Source: Planctomycetaceae bacterium
GTDB taxonomy: Bacteria > Planctomycetota > Planctomycetia > Pirellulales > UBA1268
Length of the DNA stretch: 35,884 nt
Direction: 5' to 3'
NCBI GenBank assembly: GCA_021300535.1
Contig: JAJTED010000044.1
Location: 1-35,884, forward strand
Below the pieces are notes generated by a model. It was not told where the DNA came from, searched no databases, and saw nothing but the letters and a program-made list of their open reading frames with translations. Shown here in pieces: positions 11,796 to 35,095 of the stretch. The position numbers and the translations under genes are program-made. Each line of letters begins with the position of its first letter. Position 1 is the first letter of the stretch.

Positions 11796-11907
11796 TTTGT
11801 CGGGTGTGACGATCCCGTGCCCTTGAAGCCCGAGGCGCGAGTTTCGATGTTGCGCGTTCTCTATTTCGATGGCCTCGTGCCGTGAAAAGGCGTCTGCATT
11901 CCGGCTG
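11796..11907. other. Unassigned flank between ROK gene and intron remnant
   Basis: 112 bp with no recognisable gene. It is the 3' exon side of the group II intron on the minus strand and also the place where the ROK coding sequence is lost, so it is probably foreign or rearranged DNA. Confidence 0.35.
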
Positions 11908-11950
11908 ATCGGGGCAGGGAGGTCCGATTGAATTCGGGCCCCGCTCCCGC

Positions 11951-11984
11951 CGAACCGTGCTGGCGGATCTCCCGCACACGGCTC
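11951..11984 (-). ncRNA. Group II intron domain V
   Basis: A 34-nt hairpin on the minus strand, beginning GAGCCGTGTGCGGG, with loop region AGATCC and closing strand GCACGGTTCG. Its length, its AGC triad and the bulged geometry match the catalytic domain V of bacterial group II introns. The AGC (not CGC) triad argues against class C. No damage is evident, so the RNA core could still be active if a maturase acts in trans. Confidence 0.8.
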
Positions 11985-11998
11985 TCCGGTCGATGGCC

Positions 11999-12959
11999 TT
12001 ACCTCCGTGAGGATTGAACGACCGTGGCACGGGCGGCTGCCAGACTGAACAGCCCGAGCTCGGCGAAGAAGTGATTTGGCCACCGCTGGTGATCAAGGCT
12101 CCGGCTGATGCCGGGCCGCTTCTGTCGCTTGCGGAGAATGCGCCGCAGGCGGCTCCGTACATACCCATCCACGCTCGCGAACACGTTGCGGTAGGTGGTG
12201 TGCTGGAAGTAGGCGTACCAGCCACGGAGGACCGGATGTACGCTGGCAACCACGCACTGCAGGCTATCGCCCGTCGTTCGTCGAGTGCGCGACCGTATGG
12301 CGTCGCGGAGATTCTTCAGGCTCTTCTCGCGTGGCCAGTGATTCTCGCCGCGGAAGGTGTAGCCCAAGAAGTCGAAGCGGTCCGTACGGGAGTCGACGAT
12401 CCGAGTCTTCGTCGGATGCAGTGCGAGGCCGTTGTCGGCAACCCACTGCCTGACGATCTCCAGCGCCCGAGCGGCTTCTTCTGCCGCCTTTCAAAGGATC
12501 ACGAAGTCGTCGGCATAACGAACCATCTCGAACTCGTGCTCGGCCAGCAGATGGTCGAGCGGATCGAGATAGACCCAACGGCCTGGTCTCGGTCGTGCCC
12601 GGCATCGGGATGTGAACCCGGCGAAACGCCTGCGGGACGTATGTGCCGTCCTTGAGCATCGTCGACAACTCCTGGATCACTCCCGGAAGCCGTCGCTCGA
12701 AGTCCCGGGTCGTCACATGGTCCACGCCGGCGGCACCCTTCTTCCGCGCCATCTTCTGGAACGCTGCCAGCAGATTCCGTTCGGAAAAGACCTTGTCAAA
12801 CAGTCGGAACCATTTCCCTCCCTCCACTCCCTCTTCGAGAGCCGTCACCATGCGGATCGTCCAGACGCACGGTTCGACCCACCGCCACGAGGCGGGGAAC
12901 TCTTCGGCTTGTTGAGCTCGTCGCACTGACGCCGATTGCTCTTCCGCTCGTCCGTCCAT
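11999..12959 (-). pseudogene. ltrA: Group II intron reverse transcriptase/maturase, deleted and frameshifted
   Basis: The N-terminal part (from 12959) reads KWFRLFDKVFSERNLLAAF, KKGAAGVDHVT, LKDGTYVPQAFRRVHIPMPG, TTETRPLG: fingers and RT-0/RT-1 of a group II maturase. At about 12583 it jumps, out of frame, to VYLDPLDHLLAEHEFEMVRY-ADDF, which holds the YADD active-site motif. So most of RT domains 2-4 (very roughly 200 residues) is gone. Just after YADDFVIL there is an in-frame TGA (12492-12494 region) where homologues read Cys. The frame then continues through GYTFRGENHW, the maturase (X) domain LRGWYAYFQHT and RLRRILRKRQKRPG, to ...VQSSRR at 11999. There is no HNH endonuclease domain. The protein cannot be functional as read. 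Confidence 0.85.
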
Positions 12960-13421
12960 TCCTCATCCATCTCCCTGCAGCCCTTTGCTCCGTCGGCGTT
13001 ACCCGACTTCAAAGCTCGTATGGCTCCTCTGACTCCTGCCGGGCTGTTGTCCGGCACCTGGCAGGTCTCATCACTTCATGCACTGAATCTTCCCACCATT
13101 CCGTCTCCAACCACCCCCATCGCTCCGATTGCTTGACTTGCCTTCCACAATCGGCCGTACCGTCGAGATGGCCCGCGGGCCATCCCACCCACTCAGGCAG
13201 GGCAACGCCGACGTCTGTTGGGCTTCACCATTCGCTAGCTGGTTCGCCGCGACGACGGGCCGAATCGAGTTCGTCATCTTACGGATTGGCAGTTCACCTC
13301 CTGTTGCTCTCCACCTCCCCTCGCGGGGACGCAGTTGCGTTCGGTTACGAGGCCCAAGTCCGGCCTCGACGGGGACTCTCACCCCGCTGGTTCGATACAC
13401 TTGCGATCACACGAGCGGCGG

Positions 13422-13712
13422 CCTCCGACCGTCGAATCCGGCTTGTGGATCCATGACCCGCATTCGCAAACCTGGAGGCTTGCGCCACGGAGCGGCAGTC
13501 TCCGAAGGGAACGGGAATGCGCCGATCCGCGCAACATCAAAAGGCGTGAGCCGAGCGGAATGCGGTGCGATTTCCGGTGAAGCGACGCGTATTCCCTCAG
13601 CTTGCGCTTTGGGCTTCCCAGCAACCGGACACGAGCCGCTGCCGTGGCGCAAGCCTCCAGGCTTGCGAATCCGCGTGTTGGAGCCACAGGCCGCATGCGA
13701 CGGTCTGAGACC
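13422..13712. repeat. Imperfect long inverted repeat (MITE- or REP-doublet-like)
   Basis: The arms are 13422-13495 and the reverse complement of 13638-13712, about 85% identical by eye over ~73 bp with one gap. Each arm contains a small hairpin, CGCAAGCC-TGGA-GGCTTGCG in the right arm and CGCAAACC-TGGA-GGCTTGCG in the left. The centre (13496-13637) has no gene. The left arm begins only 10 bp from the 5' end of the group II intron. The layout resembles paired REP sequences or a non-autonomous MITE. No transposase is nearby. Confidence 0.7.
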
Positions 13713-13742
13713 CGCCGCGACGGGGCGTGACGGTTGGGACGA

Positions 13743-20621: not shown

Positions 20622-23600
20622 ATGCAGCGCCCAAGGCATTCGCTTGCCATCGCGTTCGCCCTGGCGATGGTCGCCGCCAGGGCCGAGGAACCGGGCCAGT
20701 TTCGCGTGCCGGACGGTTTCCGCGTCAGCCAGTTCGCCGGCGACGACCTGGTGCACGACGTCAACTCGATGACCTTCGATCCGCGCGGCCGCGTGGTCGT
20801 TTCGGGCCGCGGCTATGTCAAGACGCTGCATGACGATGATGGCGACGGCCGCGCCGACCGGACGACGCAGTTCGCAGCCGGCCCGGCGAGCGGGGCACGG
20901 GGGCTGGCGTTCGAGGGGCACGATCTCTTCTGCACCGGCGACCATGCCCTGTCCCGCTACCGCGACCGCGACGGCGACGGCACCGCCGACGGCGAACGCG
21001 AGGTGCTCGCGAAATTGCACGTGGAGACAGACCACTCCGCCAACGGGATCGTGCGCGGCCCCGACGGCTGCTTCTACATCGCCTGCGGGAACGACGCGGG
21101 CGTGACTCGCGGTCACATCCACGACGTGCTGTCGCCGGTCGCCGACCCGCAGCAGGGCGTGGTGTATCGCCTCTCGGCCGACGGCACGCGGGCGGACGTT
21201 CTCGCCCACGGGTTCCGCAATCCATACGACCTCGACTTCGACGCCGACGGCACGCTGTGGCTCGTCGACTCCGACGGCGAGCGCGACCAGTATCTGCCCT
21301 GGTACAGCCCGACGCGGCTCTTCGCGGTGGCCACCGGCCGGCACCACGGCTGGGTGCTCCCCGGCTGGCAGCGGAGCTGGAACCGCCCCCCATGGTTTTT
21401 CGACGCGGTGCCCAGGGGGGCGGAATTGGGCCGCGGCTCACCGACCGGCGCGGTCGTCTACCGCCATCGCCGCTTTCCCGAGCGGTATCGGGGGAGCTTC
21501 TTCAGTCTCTGCTGGAGCCTCGGCCGGGTCTACGCCCTGAAGCCGAAGATCGACGGCGACGGCGGCACGGCGACGAGCGAGGTATTTTTGGAGTCGGTCG
21601 GCAGCGACGGCTTCGCGCCGGTCGACATCGAGGTCGGCCCCGACGGGCAGATGTACATCGCCATCGGCGGCCGCGGCACCAAGGGGGGCGTGTTTCGCAT
21701 CGACTACGTCGGCGCCGCGGGCGACGCGGCCGAGGAAGTCCCGGCGGCTGACGCGCCGCTCGTGCGGGTGCTGACGGCCGACCAGCCGCAGGCCGCCTGG
21801 TCGCGGGCCGCATGGCTTCCGGTGGCCCGCGAACTCGGCGCCGACGCCTTCGCGCGGGCCGCGGTCGACGCCGCGCTGCCGGAAGCCGCCCGGGTGCGGG
21901 CGATCGAGGTGCTCACCGATCTGTTCGGTGGCGTGCCCGTGGCTGCCGCCGTGTCGCTGGCAGAGGATCCGAGCCGCATGCTGCGGGCCCGGCTGGCCTG
22001 GTCGCTGGGGCGGAGTCCGGATCGGAATGCGGACGAGCGGGCGGCGGCGCCCGCTGTCAGTGGACAAAGCCCTCCTTCGCCTTTGTCCACTCGGCCGACC
22101 AGTGAAAACGCCGCGGGTTTCCACGGTCGGCATGCCTCACATCCTGCTCGGGCAGACTTGGTTCACAGCCTGCTAGCCCGCCTGACGCACGATGCCGACG
22201 AGCGGGTGCGCCGGCATGCCTGGGAGGCGCTGCTGCAGCTGCCGGCGACGGCCGTGGCGAAGCAGAGGCTCAACTGGGCCGACATCCTCGAGCCGCGGCC
22301 GCGATCCCTGCGGGCCGCGGCGCTGATGGTGCTCGCGCGGCTCGACGCTCCGCCCCCGGTGCCGGCCGATGCGGGGTTGGCGGGCCGGCTGGCGCTGCTC
22401 TGGCGAGGGGCGTTCCGCGGCGAGCTTGGTCACCCGGACCTCGAAACGGCGCGGGCCCTGTTTGCGGATGCCGCGACGCCTGCCGACCGGCTCGAGGCCG
22501 TGCGGCTGATCGAGCTCTGTCTGGGCGACGTCCGCGTCGAGCCGACGGTGCCGGACGTGTACGCCGGCTATGCGGCCGCCCGTCCGCTTCCCGACGATCC
22601 CGCGGCGACCGGACGCGCCGCGCGGACGCTCGCCGCCGCCTTGCCGAGCGGCTCCGCGGCCCTGGATCGGGAGATCGCCCGCGTGCTGGGCATGCTACAA
22701 CTCGAGCAGCCGGCGCAGCTGGAGCGGATCACCGACCTGCTCTCCGCCGCCACCACCGTGGAAGACTCGATCCACTATCTGATCGTGCTCTCGCGGCTGC
22801 CCGGCCAGCGGAGTGCGGCGGTCACGCAGACCACGGCGCGGGGCCTCCTCAGGCTTCATCACACGATGCAGGCCGCGGGCATGCAGGCCGCCCGGTTCTG
22901 GCCGGCGCGGGTGGGCGAGGCTTGCGACAAGCTCCTGGACCGCGATCCCGGCCTCGCGGAGGCGATCGTCGTCGACGAGCGACTCGGCCTGCCCGATCAC
23001 AGCCTGTTCGCGAGCCGTCTGCCCGCCGCCAGCCGCGGCCGTGCCGCCCGTCGGATCTTCGACCGCGTGGGCCGGGAAAACGTCGCGGCTTGGACACCGG
23101 AGATGGTCCTCCTGCTCGAGGCGTTGCCACCGGAGGAGCGGCGGCCGATCCTCCACGAGCTGTGGGACGAGCCGGCGTTGCAGGAGTCCGTGGCGAACCT
23201 CGTCGCCAAGGCGCCCGCCGCCGGCGACCGGGGGATCCTGGTGGAGACGCTCCGGTTCGGGCAGCCGGCCACGGTGCGTGACGTCGCCGACGCCCTGCGG
23301 AAGCTCGAATCCCGGGCGGATCCCGCCGAGCTCGTCGCGGCGATCCGCGTCCTCCGGCAGTTTGCCAGGGAGCCGCAGCATCGCGACACGTGCCGGGCGC
23401 TCGACCGGCTCATCGCCCATTGGACCGCGGCACCGGCGGCGGGCGGAGACTCGCCAGCGATGCCCGCGCACTGGGAATCCTGGCTGCGAAGCCACCACCC
23501 GGAAGCGGCCCAGGGGCTCAACGATTCCGCGGAGGACTTCGTCGCCTGGCAGAAGCGGCTGGATGGGATCGACTGGCGATCGGGCGACGCCCAACGCGGG

Positions 23601-24002
23601 AAGGTCGTCTATCACCAGCGCAGCTGTGCCCGGTGCCATGATGGCAACGCGCGGCTGGGGCCGGAGCTGGCCCCCGTGGCCCGGCGGTTTTCCCGCCAGG
23701 ACCTGTTCACGGCCATCCTCGACCCCGGTCGCGACGTGTCGCCCACCTACCGGCTGACGCAGGTGGAAACCGGGTCGGGAACGGTCGTGACGGGGCAGCT
23801 GCTCTACGAGTCGCCGGAGACCATGCTCATCCAGACGTCTCCCGACACGACCGTCCGGCTCGCGGGGCAGGAGATCCGCTCGGTCCGCAAGAGCCCGCTC
23901 TCGCCGATGCCCAGCGGCCTGCTTCGCGACGCGACCGATCGCGACCTGGCCGATCTCTATGCGTACCTCGTGTCGGCAGCCAACGCCGGCGGCTCCCCCT
24001 GA
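20622..24002 (+). CDS. PVC-type membrane-bound dehydrogenase: propeller + HEAT + cytochrome c
   Basis: 1126 residues with a signal peptide (MQRPRHSLAIAFALAMVAARA). The ribosome-binding site is weak. A propeller (about 28-370) has two DxDGDG loops at 71-76 and 115-120, NPYDLDFDADGTLWLVDSDG and VGPDGQMYIAIGG. HEAT-like repeats follow (about 380-950), and a cytochrome c domain at the end has CARCH at 1002-1006. Family knowledge: the PVC-type propeller-HEAT-heme architecture is abundant in planctomycetes, is probably extracytoplasmic, and has an unsettled substrate. Residues about 477-513 (PAVSGQSPPSPLSTRPTSEN and on) look unlike HEAT sequence and coincide with a DNA hairpin, so this may be an in-frame insertion. 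It begins the plus-strand operon with the isomerase and FGE-like genes. It is a smaller relative of the 1640-residue fusion. Confidence 0.88.
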   Translation: MQRPRHSLAIAFALAMVAARAEEPGQFRVPDGFRVSQFAGDDLVHDVNSMTFDPRGRVVVSGRGYVKTLHDDDGDGRADRTTQFAAGPASGARGLAFEGHDLFCTGDHALSRYRDRDGDGTADGEREVLAKLHVETDHSANGIVRGPDGCFYIACGNDAGVTRGHIHDVLSPVADPQQGVVYRLSADGTRADVLAHGFRNPYDLDFDADGTLWLVDSDGERDQYLPWYSPTRLFAVATGRHHGWVLPGWQRSWNRPPWFFDAVPRGAELGRGSPTGAVVYRHRRFPERYRGSFFSLCWSLGRVYALKPKIDGDGGTATSEVFLESVGSDGFAPVDIEVGPDGQMYIAIGGRGTKGGVFRIDYVGAAGDAAEEVPAADAPLVRVLTADQPQAAWSRAAWLPVARELGADAFARAAVDAALPEAARVRAIEVLTDLFGGVPVAAAVSLAEDPSRMLRARLAWSLGRSPDRNADERAAAPAVSGQSPPSPLSTRPTSENAAGFHGRHASHPARADLVHSLLARLTHDADERVRRHAWEALLQLPATAVAKQRLNWADILEPRPRSLRAAALMVLARLDAPPPVPADAGLAGRLALLWRGAFRGELGHPDLETARALFADAATPADRLEAVRLIELCLGDVRVEPTVPDVYAGYAAARPLPDDPAATGRAARTLAAALPSGSAALDREIARVLGMLQLEQPAQLERITDLLSAATTVEDSIHYLIVLSRLPGQRSAAVTQTTARGLLRLHHTMQAAGMQAARFWPARVGEACDKLLDRDPGLAEAIVVDERLGLPDHSLFASRLPAASRGRAARRIFDRVGRENVAAWTPEMVLLLEALPPEERRPILHELWDEPALQESVANLVAKAPAAGDRGILVETLRFGQPATVRDVADALRKLESRADPAELVAAIRVLRQFAREPQHRDTCRALDRLIAHWTAAPAAGGDSPAMPAHWESWLRSHHPEAAQGLNDSAEDFVAWQKRLDGIDWRSGDAQRGKVVYHQRSCARCHDGNARLGPELAPVARRFSRQDLFTAILDPGRDVSPTYRLTQVETGSGTVVTGQLLYESPETMLIQTSPDTTVRLAGQEIRSVRKSPLSPMPSGLLRDATDRDLADLYAYLVSAANAGGSP
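22059..22091. repeat. Perfect 11-bp hairpin inside a coding sequence
   Basis: AGTGGACAAAG (22059-22069) and CTTTGTCCACT (22081-22091) with an 11-nt loop, inside the HEAT region of the PVC cytochrome gene. Flanking codons give low-complexity Ser/Pro residues that do not fit the repeat pattern, suggesting an inserted palindromic unit. Confidence 0.55.
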
Positions 24003-29001: not shown

Positions 29002-30450
29002 TCACTGCCGCCCGCGGACGCCCTCCACGATCCGCTCGATGCCGAGCGGGTTGGCATCCTGGAGGGCTGCGGGCAGCAGGGCATCGGGCACGTCCTGGTA
29101 GCAGACGGGGCGAATGAACCGCTCGAGCGCCGCTGTTCCCACGCTCGTGAACCGCGCGTCGCTCGTGGCTGGCCAGGGACCGCCGTGCTGCATCGCGTGG
29201 CACACCTCGACGCCGGTGGGAAAGCCGTTGACGATCAGGCGGCCCGCCTTGTGCTCCAAAAGCTCCAGCAGATCGCCCGCCGCCGCGAGATCCTCCGCCG
29301 TGCCGTGGATCGTGGCCGTCAGCTGACCGTCGAGATGCCGGGCCATCGTCCGCAGCTCGGCGACCGTCTTCACGACGACGACGAGGCTCCACGGCCCAAA
29401 CACCTCTTCGGCCAGCCGCTCGTGGTCGAGGAATGTGGCTCCATCCGTCACGGCGATGAGTCCGGCCGCCTCCGTCTTTGCCGGGTCGGCCGCCGTGGCC
29501 GCCCTCCCGAGGATCGCCGTGCCGGCGACGTTCAACAGCGCCTGCCGACCGTTCTCGAACGCGGCGCGGATGTCGGGGGAGAGCATCGACCCCGGCGCGG
29601 CCGCCGCGATCGCCTCGCCGAGCGCGGTGCGGAAGCCGGACAGATCGCCGCTCTCGACGGCGAACACCAGCCCCGGCTCGGGGCGGGCGGCAGCCGCATC
29701 GCACAGCGCCCGACCCGCGGCCCGTGAGCCGGTGAAGCCCACGGCGCGGCAGGCCGGATGCCGCACGAGCGCGGTGCCGATCACGCTTCCTTCGCCGTGG
29801 AGCATGGAAAAAGTGCCGGGCGGCAGGCCGCAGGTCTCGACAGCCCGCTGGATCACGCCGGCGACCAGTTCCGACGTGCCCGGATGCGCCCGGTGGGCCT
29901 TCACGACGACAGGGTTGCCGGTGCACAGGCCGCTGGCCGTGTCGCCCCCGGCCACGGAAAAGGCGAGCGGAAAATTGCTGCTCCCGAACACCACCACCGG
30001 CCCCAGCGGCCGCTTCATCCGCCGCAGGTCCGGCCGGGGCAGGGGCTGTCGATCGGGCTGACGGCGATCGATCCGCGCATCCACCCACGATCCGTCGCGG
30101 GCGGCGGCCGCGAACAAGTGCAGCTGGCCGCACGTGCGGGCCCGCTCGCCGACGAGCCGCGCGGGAGGCAGCGCCGTCTCGGCGTTGGCCCGTTCAATGA
30201 GCGGATCACCGAGCTCCATGAGCCCCGCGGCAATCGTCTCCAGCAGCGTTGCCCGGACCGCGCCGCTCGAACCGCCGAACACCGGCGCCGCCGCGGCGGC
30301 GGCGAGCATGGCCGCCTCCACGTCGTCGAGCGCTGCCATCGAGAAGCGGCCGGGCAGTTCATGGCCATCGAGCGGGCTCGACGCCGTGAAGGAGCGGGCC
30401 GACTCCCGCAGGGATCCGGCGACGAAGTTTCTGCCGTGCAGGCTGGTCAT
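29002..30450 (-). CDS. Alpha-ketoglutarate-semialdehyde-dehydrogenase-like ALDH lacking its catalytic segment
   Basis: 482 residues. It aligns with NADP-dependent aldehyde dehydrogenases of the alpha-ketoglutarate semialdehyde type (about 525 residues): LHGRNFVAGS, ALPPARLVGERARTCGQL, RQPLPRPDLRRMKRPLGPV, GSSNFPLAFSVAGGDTA (conserved Asn159), VVVKAHRAHPGTSELV, AVGFTGSRAAG, then near the C terminus GRLIVNGFPTGVEVCHAMQH and RFIRPVCYQDVPDALLP. After ARPEP (residue about 258) homologues run through PVYAEM...GQFCTNPGLV; here ARPEP joins directly to GLVFAVESG. Roughly 45 residues, holding the general-base Glu and nucleophile Cys, are missing in frame (near 29670-29682). The protein cannot catalyse the normal reaction. 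Either the gene is dead, or the sequence is collapsed. In the pathway it would make alpha-ketoglutarate. Confidence 0.87.
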   Translation of the reverse strand: MTSLHGRNFVAGSLRESARSFTASSPLDGHELPGRFSMAALDDVEAAMLAAAAAAPVFGGSSGAVRATLLETIAAGLMELGDPLIERANAETALPPARLVGERARTCGQLHLFAAAARDGSWVDARIDRRQPDRQPLPRPDLRRMKRPLGPVVVFGSSNFPLAFSVAGGDTASGLCTGNPVVVKAHRAHPGTSELVAGVIQRAVETCGLPPGTFSMLHGEGSVIGTALVRHPACRAVGFTGSRAAGRALCDAAAARPEPGLVFAVESGDLSGFRTALGEAIAAAAPGSMLSPDIRAAFENGRQALLNVAGTAILGRAATAADPAKTEAAGLIAVTDGATFLDHERLAEEVFGPWSLVVVVKTVAELRTMARHLDGQLTATIHGTAEDLAAAGDLLELLEHKAGRLIVNGFPTGVEVCHAMQHGGPWPATSDARFTSVGTAALERFIRPVCYQDVPDALLPAALQDANPLGIERIVEGVRGRQ

Positions 30451-30571: not shown

Positions 30572-31921
30572 TCACCGCAGGGGCCATGCCACCGCCAGGC
30601 AGAGCGTGGCGATCAGGCCGATCGTGCCCTCGACGGCGACCATCACGGAGGCCGTCCGAAGCGTCTGCACCTCCGACATGCCGCTCATCCGTGAGATCAC
30701 CCAAAAGCCGCTGTCATTCATCCACATTCCCACCTTGGACCCGCAGCCGATGGCGATGGCGACGTACACGGGATGAACCGCCGGCGTGCCATCGAGCAGG
30801 ATCGGGGCCATCACGCCCGCCGCGGTGATCATCGCCACCGTCGCCGATCCCTGGGCCATGCGGATCACCGCCGTCAGCAGCCAGGCCAGCGGGATGAGCC
30901 CGAGCCCGGCGGCCGCGGCCAGCCCGGTGGAGACCTGGCCGAGCCCCGCCTCGCGAAGCGTCACGCCGAGGGCCCCGCCCGCCGCGATCACCAGGATGAT
31001 GTTGCCCGCCTCGGTCACCGCCTCGGCGATCGAGCCACGGACGGCCGGCATGCCGGCGCCGCAGGCCGCGAGCAGCACGATGGAGACAAGCGCGGCCAGC
31101 GACAGCGCGACGTTCTTGTCGCCCAGAATGCGGACCGCCGCCAGCGCGCTGGCGGGAATGGCGTCGGCGGTGGACCGCGACAACGATTCCAGGCTGATGA
31201 GCACCAAGGGGAGCAGGATCGGCAGCAGCGCCGCCCAGAGCGGCGGCCCGCTGCCGGCTGCCGTGGCGGAGGCTCGGGTAGCCGCGGCCGATCGCGCCGG
31301 CTCGAGCGGCCACCGGCCGTCGGCCCATCGGGCGTACGCATAGCCGCCCAGCGCCGCAATGATCCCAACGACGAGCCCCACGCCGCTCATCGTCGCGATG
31401 TCGACGCCGAGGGCGTCGGCCACGAACAGCGGCCCCGGCGTCGGAGGCACGAGCGAATGCGTCATCGTGGCGCCCGCGACGATCGCCAGCACGCACACCA
31501 GATACCCGCGGCCAGTCCGCTCCCAGGCCGCCCGAGCCAGCGGCAGAAGCAGATAGAAGACCGTCTCCGCAAACATCGGGATTCCGAGGACGAACCCGGC
31601 CAAGAGCAGGGCCAGCGGCGTGTGCCGCTCGCCCACGCACCGCTGGATGGCGGCCACGATCCGCCGATCGCCACCGGCCGCGGACAGGCAGCTGCCGAGG
31701 ATCGAGGCCATGGCGATCACGATCCCGATGTCGAGCGCCGTCTTGCCGAAGCCCTCGGCCACCCGCTGGCCCGGCCCGACGGGCCGCGCTGCATCGACCG
31801 GCGTGAGCGCGGCGACGACAAACGCCGCCGCGATGAGGATCAGAAACGGATGGAGCCGAAAGGCCAGCACGCCACCGACCACGACCACGAGGGCCGCGAC
31901 GAGAATGGCAAGCGGGGTCAT
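30572..31921 (-). CDS. GntP-family gluconate/aldonate:H+ symporter
   Basis: 449 residues from the ATG at 31921. The frame runs far upstream over the dehydratase gene on the other strand, but that part is antisense sequence. The protein is almost wholly hydrophobic, with about 12-14 membrane segments from MTPLAILVAALVVVVGGVLA onward. Family signatures are GFGKTALDIGIVIAMASILG, FVLGIPMFAETVFYLLLPL, GATMTHSLVPPTPGPLFVAD (strongly conserved in GntP), GSATVAMITAAGVMAP, GCGSKVGMWMNDSGFWVISR (also diagnostic) and LRTASVMVAVEGTIGLI. GntP transporters import gluconate, idonate or related aldonates with protons. Divergent from the aldonate dehydratase gene with 78 bp between starts, so the two are probably controlled from one shared region. 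Confidence 0.92.
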   Translation of the reverse strand: MTPLAILVAALVVVVGGVLAFRLHPFLILIAAAFVVAALTPVDAARPVGPGQRVAEGFGKTALDIGIVIAMASILGSCLSAAGGDRRIVAAIQRCVGERHTPLALLLAGFVLGIPMFAETVFYLLLPLARAAWERTGRGYLVCVLAIVAGATMTHSLVPPTPGPLFVADALGVDIATMSGVGLVVGIIAALGGYAYARWADGRWPLEPARSAAATRASATAAGSGPPLWAALLPILLPLVLISLESLSRSTADAIPASALAAVRILGDKNVALSLAALVSIVLLAACGAGMPAVRGSIAEAVTEAGNIILVIAAGGALGVTLREAGLGQVSTGLAAAAGLGLIPLAWLLTAVIRMAQGSATVAMITAAGVMAPILLDGTPAVHPVYVAIAIGCGSKVGMWMNDSGFWVISRMSGMSEVQTLRTASVMVAVEGTIGLIATLCLAVAWPLR

Positions 31922-31999
31922 GGCGAAGAATTTCACTCCGGACGGCAGGGGAGAAGGTACACTAACTCCCCGGCGACGGCCACCAACACGACGACCGGC
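31922..31999. promoter_or_regulatory. Divergent promoter region of permease and aldonate dehydratase
   Basis: 78 bp between the two divergent starts. On the plus strand TACACT (31958-31963) could be a -10 box; no good -35 is seen at normal spacing. No inverted repeat stands out as an operator. Confidence 0.3.
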
Positions 32000-33742
32000 A
32001 TGACTCGCGATCCTCACGCCCCCAGGCTTTCCCCGAGCGACCTGCGTTCCCAGCGCTGGTTCGCACCGGACGATCTCCGCGCCTTCGGCCATCGCAGCCG
32101 CCTGCGGCAGATGGGCTACTCCGCCGAGGAGGCTGAGGGCCGTCCGGTGATCGCGATCCTCAACTCCTGGAGCGACCTGAGCCAGTGCCACACCCACTTC
32201 CCGGAGCGGGTGCAGGAAGTGAAGCGCGGCGTCTGGCAGGCCGGAGGGTTTCCCCTCGAGATCCCCGTGCTGGCGATCTCGGAAATGTTCATGAAGCCGA
32301 CGGCGATGTTCTATCGCAACCTCCTGGCCATGGAGGTCGAGGAGGTGCTGCGGAGCCATCCGGTCGACGGCTGCGTGCTCATGGGGGGCTGCGACAAGAC
32401 CGTGCCCGGCCTCTTGATGGGAGCGATCTCCGCGGATCTGCCGGCGGTCTTTCTGCCCGCGGGCCCGATGCTCGCCGGCCGCTACCGCAACGAGCGGCTC
32501 GGCAGCGGCACCGACGTCTGGAAATACTGGGCCCAGCGACAGGCCGGCTGCCTCGACGCATGCGTCTGGCGGCAGCTCGAATCGGGCATCGCGCGTTCGG
32601 CGGGCACGTGCATGACGATGGGAACGGCATCCACGCTGGCCGCCGTCGTGGAGACGCTCGGGATGATGCTTCCCGGCGCCGCGACGATTCCCGCCGTGCA
32701 CTCCGCCCACGCCCGGATGGCGGCGGCCTGCGGCCGACGGATCGTGGGCATGGTGTGGGAAGACCTACGGCCGTCGCAGATCCTCTCGCCAGCCTCGTTC
32801 GACAACGCCATCGTCGCCGACATGGCCCTGGCCGGGTCGACCAACGCGATCGTTCACCTGCTCGCGTTGGCCCGCCGTGCCGGCGTGCCGCTGTCGCTCG
32901 ACCGCTTCGACGCCCTCTCCCGCACCACCCCCGTGCTCGCCAACCTGCGACCTGCGGGCGAGTTCCTCATGGAGGATTTTCACGACGCCGGCGGTGTGGC
33001 AGCGCTCCTCTCGCGGATTCCGCATCTGCTCGACCTGAACGCCCTCACCGTAACCGGCAAGACGCTCGGTGCGAACATCGCAGACGCCGAGGTGATCGAC
33101 GAACGGGTGATCCTGCCACTCGATGCGCCGCTCTCGCGGGCCGGCGGCACGTTCGTGCTCCGGGGCAACCTCGCCCCGCACGGCTGCGTGATCAAGCCGA
33201 CGGCCGCCGACCCCAGGCTGCTCAAGCACACCGGGCGGGCCATCGTCTTCGATTCCTATCCCGACATGAAGTCGCGAATCGACGATCCCGCGACCGGCAT
33301 CACGGCCGACGACGTGCTCGTGCTGCGAAATGCCGGACCGCTCGGCGGCCCGGGCATGCCGGAATGGGGCATGCTGCCGATCCCCAAGCCGCTCCTGGAG
33401 CAGGGCGTGCGTGACATGGTGCGGATTTCCGACGCGCGGATGAGCGGCACGAGCTACGGGACGTGCGTGCTCCACGTTGCCCCCGAGGCGGCCATCGGCG
33501 GGCCGCTGGCCGTCGTGCAGACCGGCGACCGCATCGCACTCGACGTGGAGGCCCGGCGGCTCGATGTGCTCGTCGCCGACGAGGAGCTCTCCCGGCGGCT
33601 GGCGGCCTGGAAAGCCCCCGCGCCACGATTCGCCCGCGGCTACGGCTGGCTCTACGGCGAACAGGCGACTCAGGCCGATCTGGGCTGTGACTTCCGGTTT
33701 CTGGAACGCGGCGAGCCGACGCCCGACCCCGACATTTTCTGA
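32000..33742 (+). CDS. IlvD/Edd-family sugar-acid dehydratase (L-arabonate/D-xylonate type)
   Basis: 580 residues from the ATG at 32000; the frame is open upstream only over the antisense of the permease. Cluster and metal ligands are in place: Cys63 in SQCHTHFPERV, Cys131-Asp132-Lys133 in GGCDKTVPGLLMG, and Cys204 in AGTCMTMGTASTL. The spacing matches the three Cys of Rhizobium L-arabinonate dehydratase, which binds a [2Fe-2S] cluster. Other family blocks are WSDLSQCHTHF, ADMALAGSTNAIVHLLALAR, TGKTLGANI, GNLAPHGCVIKPTA, YPDMKSRIDD, GPGMPEWGMLPIP and ISDARMSGTSYGT. The reaction is aldonate to 2-keto-3-deoxy-aldonate. Of the IlvD types it reads as pentonate dehydratase rather than IlvD (dihydroxyacid) or Edd, by inference from the context. 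Cytoplasmic. Confidence 0.93.
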   Translation: MTRDPHAPRLSPSDLRSQRWFAPDDLRAFGHRSRLRQMGYSAEEAEGRPVIAILNSWSDLSQCHTHFPERVQEVKRGVWQAGGFPLEIPVLAISEMFMKPTAMFYRNLLAMEVEEVLRSHPVDGCVLMGGCDKTVPGLLMGAISADLPAVFLPAGPMLAGRYRNERLGSGTDVWKYWAQRQAGCLDACVWRQLESGIARSAGTCMTMGTASTLAAVVETLGMMLPGAATIPAVHSAHARMAAACGRRIVGMVWEDLRPSQILSPASFDNAIVADMALAGSTNAIVHLLALARRAGVPLSLDRFDALSRTTPVLANLRPAGEFLMEDFHDAGGVAALLSRIPHLLDLNALTVTGKTLGANIADAEVIDERVILPLDAPLSRAGGTFVLRGNLAPHGCVIKPTAADPRLLKHTGRAIVFDSYPDMKSRIDDPATGITADDVLVLRNAGPLGGPGMPEWGMLPIPKPLLEQGVRDMVRISDARMSGTSYGTCVLHVAPEAAIGGPLAVVQTGDRIALDVEARRLDVLVADEELSRRLAAWKAPAPRFARGYGWLYGEQATQADLGCDFRFLERGEPTPDPDIF

Positions 33743-33778: not shown

Positions 33779-34696
33779 GTGAACAGTTCCCCCACGCTCA
33801 CGAAGGCCCACCTGCAACGCTCGGTGATGGCCGTACCGCCCCTGGCCCGCACGGTGGCCGGCGGCATCGACCCCGCCGCCAACGAACGCATCATCCGCCA
33901 TCTCGAGCGGGGCGGCGTGTCGCTGCTGCTCTACGGCGGCAACGCCAACATCTATCACCTGCCGCTCGGTGAATACGAGCCGCTACTGGCGATGCTCGCC
34001 CAGACGGCTTCGCCAGACACGCTCGTCGTGCCCGCCGCCGGCCCCACCTTCGGTCTTCTGCTTGAACACGCGCAGGTGATTCGCCGGCACCGGTTCCAAA
34101 CCGTGATGGTGCTGCCGCAGCAGGGCATCACCACGAGCGCGGGCGTGGCGACGGGCGTGCGTCGATTCGTCGAGGCGGCCGGCGTGCCGGCGCTCCTCTA
34201 CATCAAGCACGACGGGTTCATCGAGCCGGCCGACGCGGCCCGGCTCTGCCGCGACGGTCTCATCAGCGCGATCAAGTATGCGACGGTGCGGCCGGATCCG
34301 GCCCGCGACCCGTATCTCCGCGAACTGGTCGGTCTCGTCGACCCGGAGATCATCATCAGCGGCATCGGGGAGCAGCCGGCCATCGTCCACATGCGGGATT
34401 TCGGCCTCGGCGGCTTCACGACCGGCTGCGGGTGCGTGGCGCCGAAGCTTTCCCAGGCCATGCTGGCGGCCATCCGGGCAAAACAGTGGGCCGAGGCGGA
34501 GCGGATTCGCCGGGTGTTCGAGCCGCTGGAAAACCTACGCAACGCCATCAACCCGATCCGCGTCCTGCATGAGGCCGTGACGGCAGCGGACATCGCCGCC
34601 ACCGGCCCGCTCCAGCCGCTCTTGGACAACGTCGAGGAGCGGCATCGCCCGGCGATCGCGGCGGCGGCGCGGGCGCTCGTGGCCGCGGACGGCTGA
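33779..34696 (+). CDS. DapA-family dehydratase/aldolase (2-keto-3-deoxy-pentonate type)
   Basis: 305 residues from the GTG at 33779, 36 bp after the dehydratase gene; an ATG at codon 17 is an alternative start. Class I aldolase/dehydratase TIM barrel with LERGGVSLLLYGGNANIYHL, FQTVMVLPQQGITT, PALLYIKHDGF (Tyr141) and LISAIKYATV, where Lys166 is the Schiff-base residue, and GLGGFTTGCGCVAPKL. Next to a pentonate dehydratase, the likely reaction is dehydration of 2-keto-3-deoxy-L-arabonate to alpha-ketoglutarate semialdehyde, but retro-aldol cleavage to pyruvate and glycolaldehyde is possible for the fold. If glycolaldehyde were made, the nearby alpha-hydroxyacid oxidase would fit (inference). 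Same operon as the dehydratase. Confidence 0.88.
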   Translation: MNSSPTLTKAHLQRSVMAVPPLARTVAGGIDPAANERIIRHLERGGVSLLLYGGNANIYHLPLGEYEPLLAMLAQTASPDTLVVPAAGPTFGLLLEHAQVIRRHRFQTVMVLPQQGITTSAGVATGVRRFVEAAGVPALLYIKHDGFIEPADAARLCRDGLISAIKYATVRPDPARDPYLRELVGLVDPEIIISGIGEQPAIVHMRDFGLGGFTTGCGCVAPKLSQAMLAAIRAKQWAEAERIRRVFEPLENLRNAINPIRVLHEAVTAADIAATGPLQPLLDNVEERHRPAIAAAARALVAADG

Positions 34697-34762: not shown

Positions 34763-35095
34763 GGGTCCTACGCCCGGCTCTTGTCCTGTGCCAAAGAGTC
34801 GGCGGGCAAGAAGCAGGGCAGCGGGGGGCGGAAGATCGGCAACGCCCACCTCAAGTGGGCCTTCAGCGAGGCGGCGGCTTTGATGATCCGCAGCAGCCCC
34901 GAGGCGAAGGCATTCATGGAGAAGATGACTCGCCAACGGGGCAAGGCCCGGGCCGTGGTCCTCGTCGCCGCCAAGATCGGCCGCGACGTCTACTGGTTGA
35001 TGAAGCGACAGCAGCCCGTTGACGCCCGGAAACTCTGGAAGAGCAGCCTGCCCAAGAGCGTCCGCACCATGGAGGGAGCCGTCATGAAAGGCTGA
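34763..35095 (+). pseudogene. IS110-family transposase, 3' fragment
   Basis: The frame from about 34763 reads SYARLLSCAKESAGKKQGSG, GRKIGNAHLKWAFSEAA, LMIRSSPEAKAFMEKMTRQR, GKARAVVLVAAKIGRDVYWL and MKRQQPVDARKLW. This is the C-terminal Transposase_20 end of IS110/IS1111-type transposases. The first ~300 residues, including the RuvC-like DEDD domain, are missing. The fragment abuts the hairpin downstream of the DapA-type gene. A dead remnant of an element that excised or was overwritten on its left. Confidence 0.85.

Follow-up and report, generated by a model that had tools for sequence, protein, structure and literature searches.

The aldehyde dehydrogenase gene described here raises the question of how a gene that is otherwise well preserved can lack both of its catalytic residues. 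It lies in a stretch of 35,884 nucleotides of a Planctomycetaceae bacterium, which was analysed as a whole and is called the window below. A single recent in-frame deletion of 138 nt, which inactivated the last enzyme of a pentonate cluster, is the reading that we favour, with a probability of about 0.64.

Identity of the gene and extent of the loss

29002..30450, minus strand: NADP+-dependent aldehyde dehydrogenase gene, alpha-ketoglutaric semialdehyde / 2,5-dioxovalerate dehydrogenase-like, 482 aa, with an internal loss of 138 nt

This gene is an orthologue of the alpha-ketoglutaric semialdehyde and V. harveyi-type NADP+-dependent aldehyde dehydrogenases. Among proteins of solved structure, its product comes closest to 3v4c, the semialdehyde dehydrogenase of S. 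meliloti (E=2.7e-111), and 1eyy, the NADP+ aldehyde dehydrogenase of V. harveyi (E=2.3e-109), which both align as two stretches flanking one gap, with about 41-42% identity in both flanking parts, and identity to planctomycete orthologues reaches 67-89%. Homology indeed extends over the N- and C-terminal parts of this enzyme type, with the same domain order and conserved NADP-binding and C-terminal parts; unlike these enzymes, however, the window protein has lost 46 residues, including the catalytic Glu and Cys. Among family profiles, Pfam Aldedh matched residues 19-256 only (E=1.9e-33), and the NCBIfam equivalogs scored far under their cut-offs.

The preliminary description had claimed an in-frame loss of about 45 residues with both catalytic residues, and alignment with the closest intact orthologue made this claim exact. 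This orthologue, a 528-aa copy in the MAG UBA4655 (locus L062, the same place as G071:C165), is about 90% identical in DNA on either side of the gap, and in comparison with it exactly 138 nt (46 codons) are missing. The gap runs from the D/E in RPDP up to the K in CTKPG and removes 45 residues plus one residue at the join. The open reading frame crosses the junction as ...AAARPEP/GLVFAVESG..., where the slash marks the join. The lost piece holds FAEM (Glu265 of L062) and GQFCT (Cys302 of L062), and both the general-base Glu of (F)AEM and the catalytic Cys of GQFCT are thus missing from the 482-aa protein. This Cys aligns with residue 289 of 1eyy, and Cys289 was reported to be catalytic in the V. 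harveyi enzyme (Vedadi 1995, as cited in PMC5121451). Catalytic activity would not be expected of a protein that lacks both residues, and the enzyme is almost certainly dead.

Pathway context

The gene had also been placed at the last step of a pentonate-degradation cluster, in line with its neighbours:

30572..32083, minus strand: frame of a GntP-family gluconate/sugar-acid permease (Pfam GntP_permease, E=1.6e-82, residues 57-497), open up to 32083, with the true start inside the frame

31991..33742, plus strand: L-arabinonate dehydratase, IlvD/Edd family (NCBIfam NF009559, 946 bits for a cut-off of 882)

33779..34696, plus strand: divergent DHDPS/KdgD-like protein, probable 2-keto-3-deoxy-arabinonate dehydratase, a putative role (NF002958, E=2.7e-8, below cut-off)

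The same four genes, permease included, were found in unchanged order in the loci L062 and L063. The DHDPS-like protein, which is 95% identical in L062, matched Pfam DHDPS at E=6e-4, below cut-off, and possibly represents an uncharacterised subfamily of keto-deoxy-pentonate dehydratases. By this context, the cluster fits the Route II non-phosphorylative pentose pathway with the aldehyde dehydrogenase as its last step, and the neighbouring genes suggest that intact orthologues oxidise alpha-ketoglutaric semialdehyde. Route II (Weimberg-type) clusters have been described (PMC6336799) and resemble that of the window by the adjoining L-arabinonate dehydratase, DHDPS-like dehydratase, aldehyde dehydrogenase and transporter; the window cluster differs from them by a GntP permease where they have an ABC transporter, and by its broken last enzyme. 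A C-terminal fragment of an IS110-family transposase (34781-35095) adjoins the pentonate cluster.

Distribution of the loss among relatives

The loss was confined to the window. In an alignment of full-length homologues, Glu and Cys were present, with no gap at the site, in all 109 of the other sequences (109/109), and only the window's own two copies carried the gap. In every relative for which the motifs were read, 138 nt separate the ends of the segment, and the window therefore represents the derived state. A deletion common to relatives was not found in 72 genomes of the family and 80 further loci. Such a deletion would have pointed to an old, functional form; a conserved pseudo-enzyme is unsupported, since no relative has the same loss. 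The disabling lesion is thus private to the window, as in a pseudogene. The preliminary description held that a related genome with the full segment would refute the loss: every relative indeed has the segment, yet this reveals the ancestral condition and is not enough on its own to refute a genuine deletion in the window.

Other copies in the assembly

The preliminary description had suggested a search for a second intact copy. No second orthologue was found in the assembly, which contained only a paralogue on contig C28 and more distant aldehyde dehydrogenases; when searched with the missing piece, the assembly gave matches only to the window's own flank and to this paralogue. The alternatives offered in the preliminary description, namely a last step that is missing or done elsewhere, or a collapsed sequence, are all compatible with this outcome. 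This paralogue (541 aa) has both motifs intact, as VEMGSVNP and GQFCTKPG, and orthologues of it occur widely in the family. It may have taken over the step, in which case the loss would be neutral and the gene on its way out. This idea, which is compatible with a recent deletion, seems to us possible, at somewhat below an even chance: the paralogue is just 41%/34% identical and is surrounded by genes for an RND pump, a flavin monooxygenase-like protein, a metallo-beta-lactamase-fold protein and a cyclase, with no sugar genes, and the substrate that such a takeover supposes is putative.

Junction and likely route of the deletion

29671..29683, minus strand: deletion junction, with the breakpoint in codon GAG at about 29675-29679, within CCCCGAGCCGGGG, as placed by alignments

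The GC palindrome CCCCGAGCCGGGG, to which the preliminary description had drawn attention, was formed by the join itself. The gene contains 7 palindromes of this kind (stem 5, loop 3) and the window 88, and that at the junction is therefore evidence of nothing; as a cause of the deletion it was rejected, such palindromes being common in this GC-rich gene.

An imperfect direct repeat offers a better lead. In L062, the ends of the lost piece read GACCCGATTCCCGTGTTCGC and AAGCCGGGGCTGGTGTTCGC; they are identical at 13 of 20 positions, both contain GTGTTCGC, in equal codon register, and they share the pattern CCG......GTGTTCGC, which encodes P-x-x-V-F-A at both ends. Of random in-frame pairs within the gene, 0.5% attained a similarity of 13/20, and 23 of the 1429 positions at the same offset (1.6%) were equally similar. 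From a mechanistic point of view, slippage would be the likeliest route. In E. coli, deletions between short direct repeats that do not depend on RecA are indeed documented (PMC5426353); there, as in the window, the intervening stretch is lost together with one copy, whereas the repeat of the window is imperfect and short. We thus suggest that the gene formerly encoded the enzyme converting alpha-ketoglutaric semialdehyde into alpha-ketoglutarate, the last one of a non-phosphorylative pentonate cluster, and that one 138-nt deletion, with its ends in the repeat CCG......GTGTTCGC, fused the NADP-binding part straight to the catalytic part and took out Glu and Cys. The reading frame would have been kept because both ends of the deletion lie in a direct repeat in codon register, and the product would be a protein devoid of catalytic activity in the cell.

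Selection and age of the loss

The remainder of the gene is well conserved, as had been claimed. Between the window and L062, dN/dS was 0.21 for the aldehyde dehydrogenase gene, within the range of its neighbours (0.10-0.33), namely 0.33 for the permease, 0.12 for the L-arabinonate dehydratase and 0.10 for the DHDPS-like gene. With 20 outgroups to polarise the substitutions, 40 synonymous and 21 nonsynonymous changes fell on the window branch, vs. 33 and 21 on the intact branch (Fisher p 0.70). The fraction of the window branch that evolved free of selection was at most 0.12 to 0.20, depending on which of two cut-offs was applied. Among the family-invariant columns, 44 of 45 were retained, the exception being Ala174, changed to Gly. 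The relaxed selection that a pseudogene may show after its lesion was thus not detected, the window and intact branches being alike. Since these branches are alike and the neutral share is small, the substitution pattern argues that the loss is either very young or not in the organism at all. If the deletion is real, it would be a very recent event in this lineage, and the rest of the gene would be undecayed because too little time has passed.

Deletion or assembly artefact

The second of these possibilities deserves serious consideration. An assembly or library artefact would mean that the genome carries an intact gene, from which 138 nt were dropped by a chimeric or slipped read, or by gap closing in a fragmented metagenome assembly. 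The assembly is indeed fragmented (4.0 Mb in 197 contigs, 86% complete), the lost piece is very GC-rich, the remaining gene is free of any relaxation, and false pseudogenes are known to arise from errors of assembly (PMC11017572). The repeat, moreover, is weak, and the lack of decay is exactly what such an error would give, which undermines the deletion reading. Against an artefact, a random error would keep the frame with a 1-in-3 chance, a fragment bearing the missing piece was not found elsewhere in the assembly, and in the aligned stretches of the window contig (C57) and contig C59 with UBA4655 there was no other loss above 18 bp. Assemblers working with long words do not join sites with few bases in common unless the reads themselves carry the junction, and few bases are indeed common to both ends at the exact breakpoint, when L062 stands in for the ancestor. 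We consequently regard an artefact as doubtful, although far from negligible. The sharp in-frame join, the repeat at its ends and the absence of any other loss above 18 bp in aligned C57 and C59 lead us to favour a real deletion, whose deleted form would then exist in the sequenced population, at near 2 to 1 over an artefact, a ratio that is a judgement and not a computed figure.

Predicted structure and the question of a retained function

AlphaFold was run with the same homologue set on the window protein and on an intact orthologue as a control. The intact orthologue was predicted with a mean pLDDT of 92.5 and no segment below 50, vs. 83.2 for the window protein, where values fell below 50 at 256-259 (the junction) and at 412-434, a conserved loop, PTGVEVCHAMQHGGPWPATSDAR, which faces the active site. 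Taken as a whole, the model of the window protein did not superpose on 3v4c (TM 0.57, rmsd 20.6); it should be noted that such a model is no test of protein stability. Selection might keep the shortened protein as a regulator or as a scaffold that binds NADP. This would agree with the open frame and with the lack of relaxed selection, but we consider it highly improbable: the form is absent from all relatives, recency accounts for the lack of decay, the predicted fold seems broken on the active-site side, and the otherwise invariant Ala174 is changed to Gly. A more specific version of this idea, in which the protein is real and retained as an NADP-binding pseudo-aldehyde-dehydrogenase and either controls the arabinonate cluster or acts as a partner of the intact paralogue, is scarcely credible.

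The locus is thus best seen as ordinary: it has either suffered a recent one-off lesion with loss of function or been misassembled, and there is no sign of a novel enzyme type. It calls for caution in annotation, as automatic tools will still label the gene an aldehyde dehydrogenase though both catalytic residues are gone; because these are missing, the locus 29002-30450 is no basis for calling the pentonate pathway complete. If the loss is real, it offers a snapshot of a pathway gene immediately after its inactivation.

Other features of the contig

Over much of the window contig and of C59 (L182), DNA identity to contigs of UBA4655 (G071), a genome of a different genus, is 83-97%, whereas core contigs give only about 72% (protein, C28) and 75-80% (DNA, C164). 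This likeness may reflect large regions that were recently transferred or are shared, or else cross-binning in either assembly. The window also carries multicopy repeats that occur on core contigs such as C164, and transfer or shared islands are therefore as likely as misbinning. Positions 1-114 of the window are identical to the last 114 bases of C59 (18901 bp), and the two contigs therefore probably adjoin.

An intergenic repeat of about 85 bp occurs in inverted pairs at 13413-13718, with dozens of copies at 75-97% identity spread over many contigs of this genome; relatives have few copies. It is preceded by a group II intron (11907-13412; Rfam RF00029 at 11932-11986, minus strand), the only match of an Rfam search of the window and far from the aldehyde dehydrogenase gene. 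Its reverse-transcriptase frame looks interrupted, related copies were found in G010 and G057, and fragments lie at many contig ends. Finally, a large DUF7133/cytochrome c protein (20622-24002) has a close relative in G071 only (88%), the rest of the family reaching about 40% at best, and a 63-residue piece of it, 94% identical, lies near the end of contig C109.
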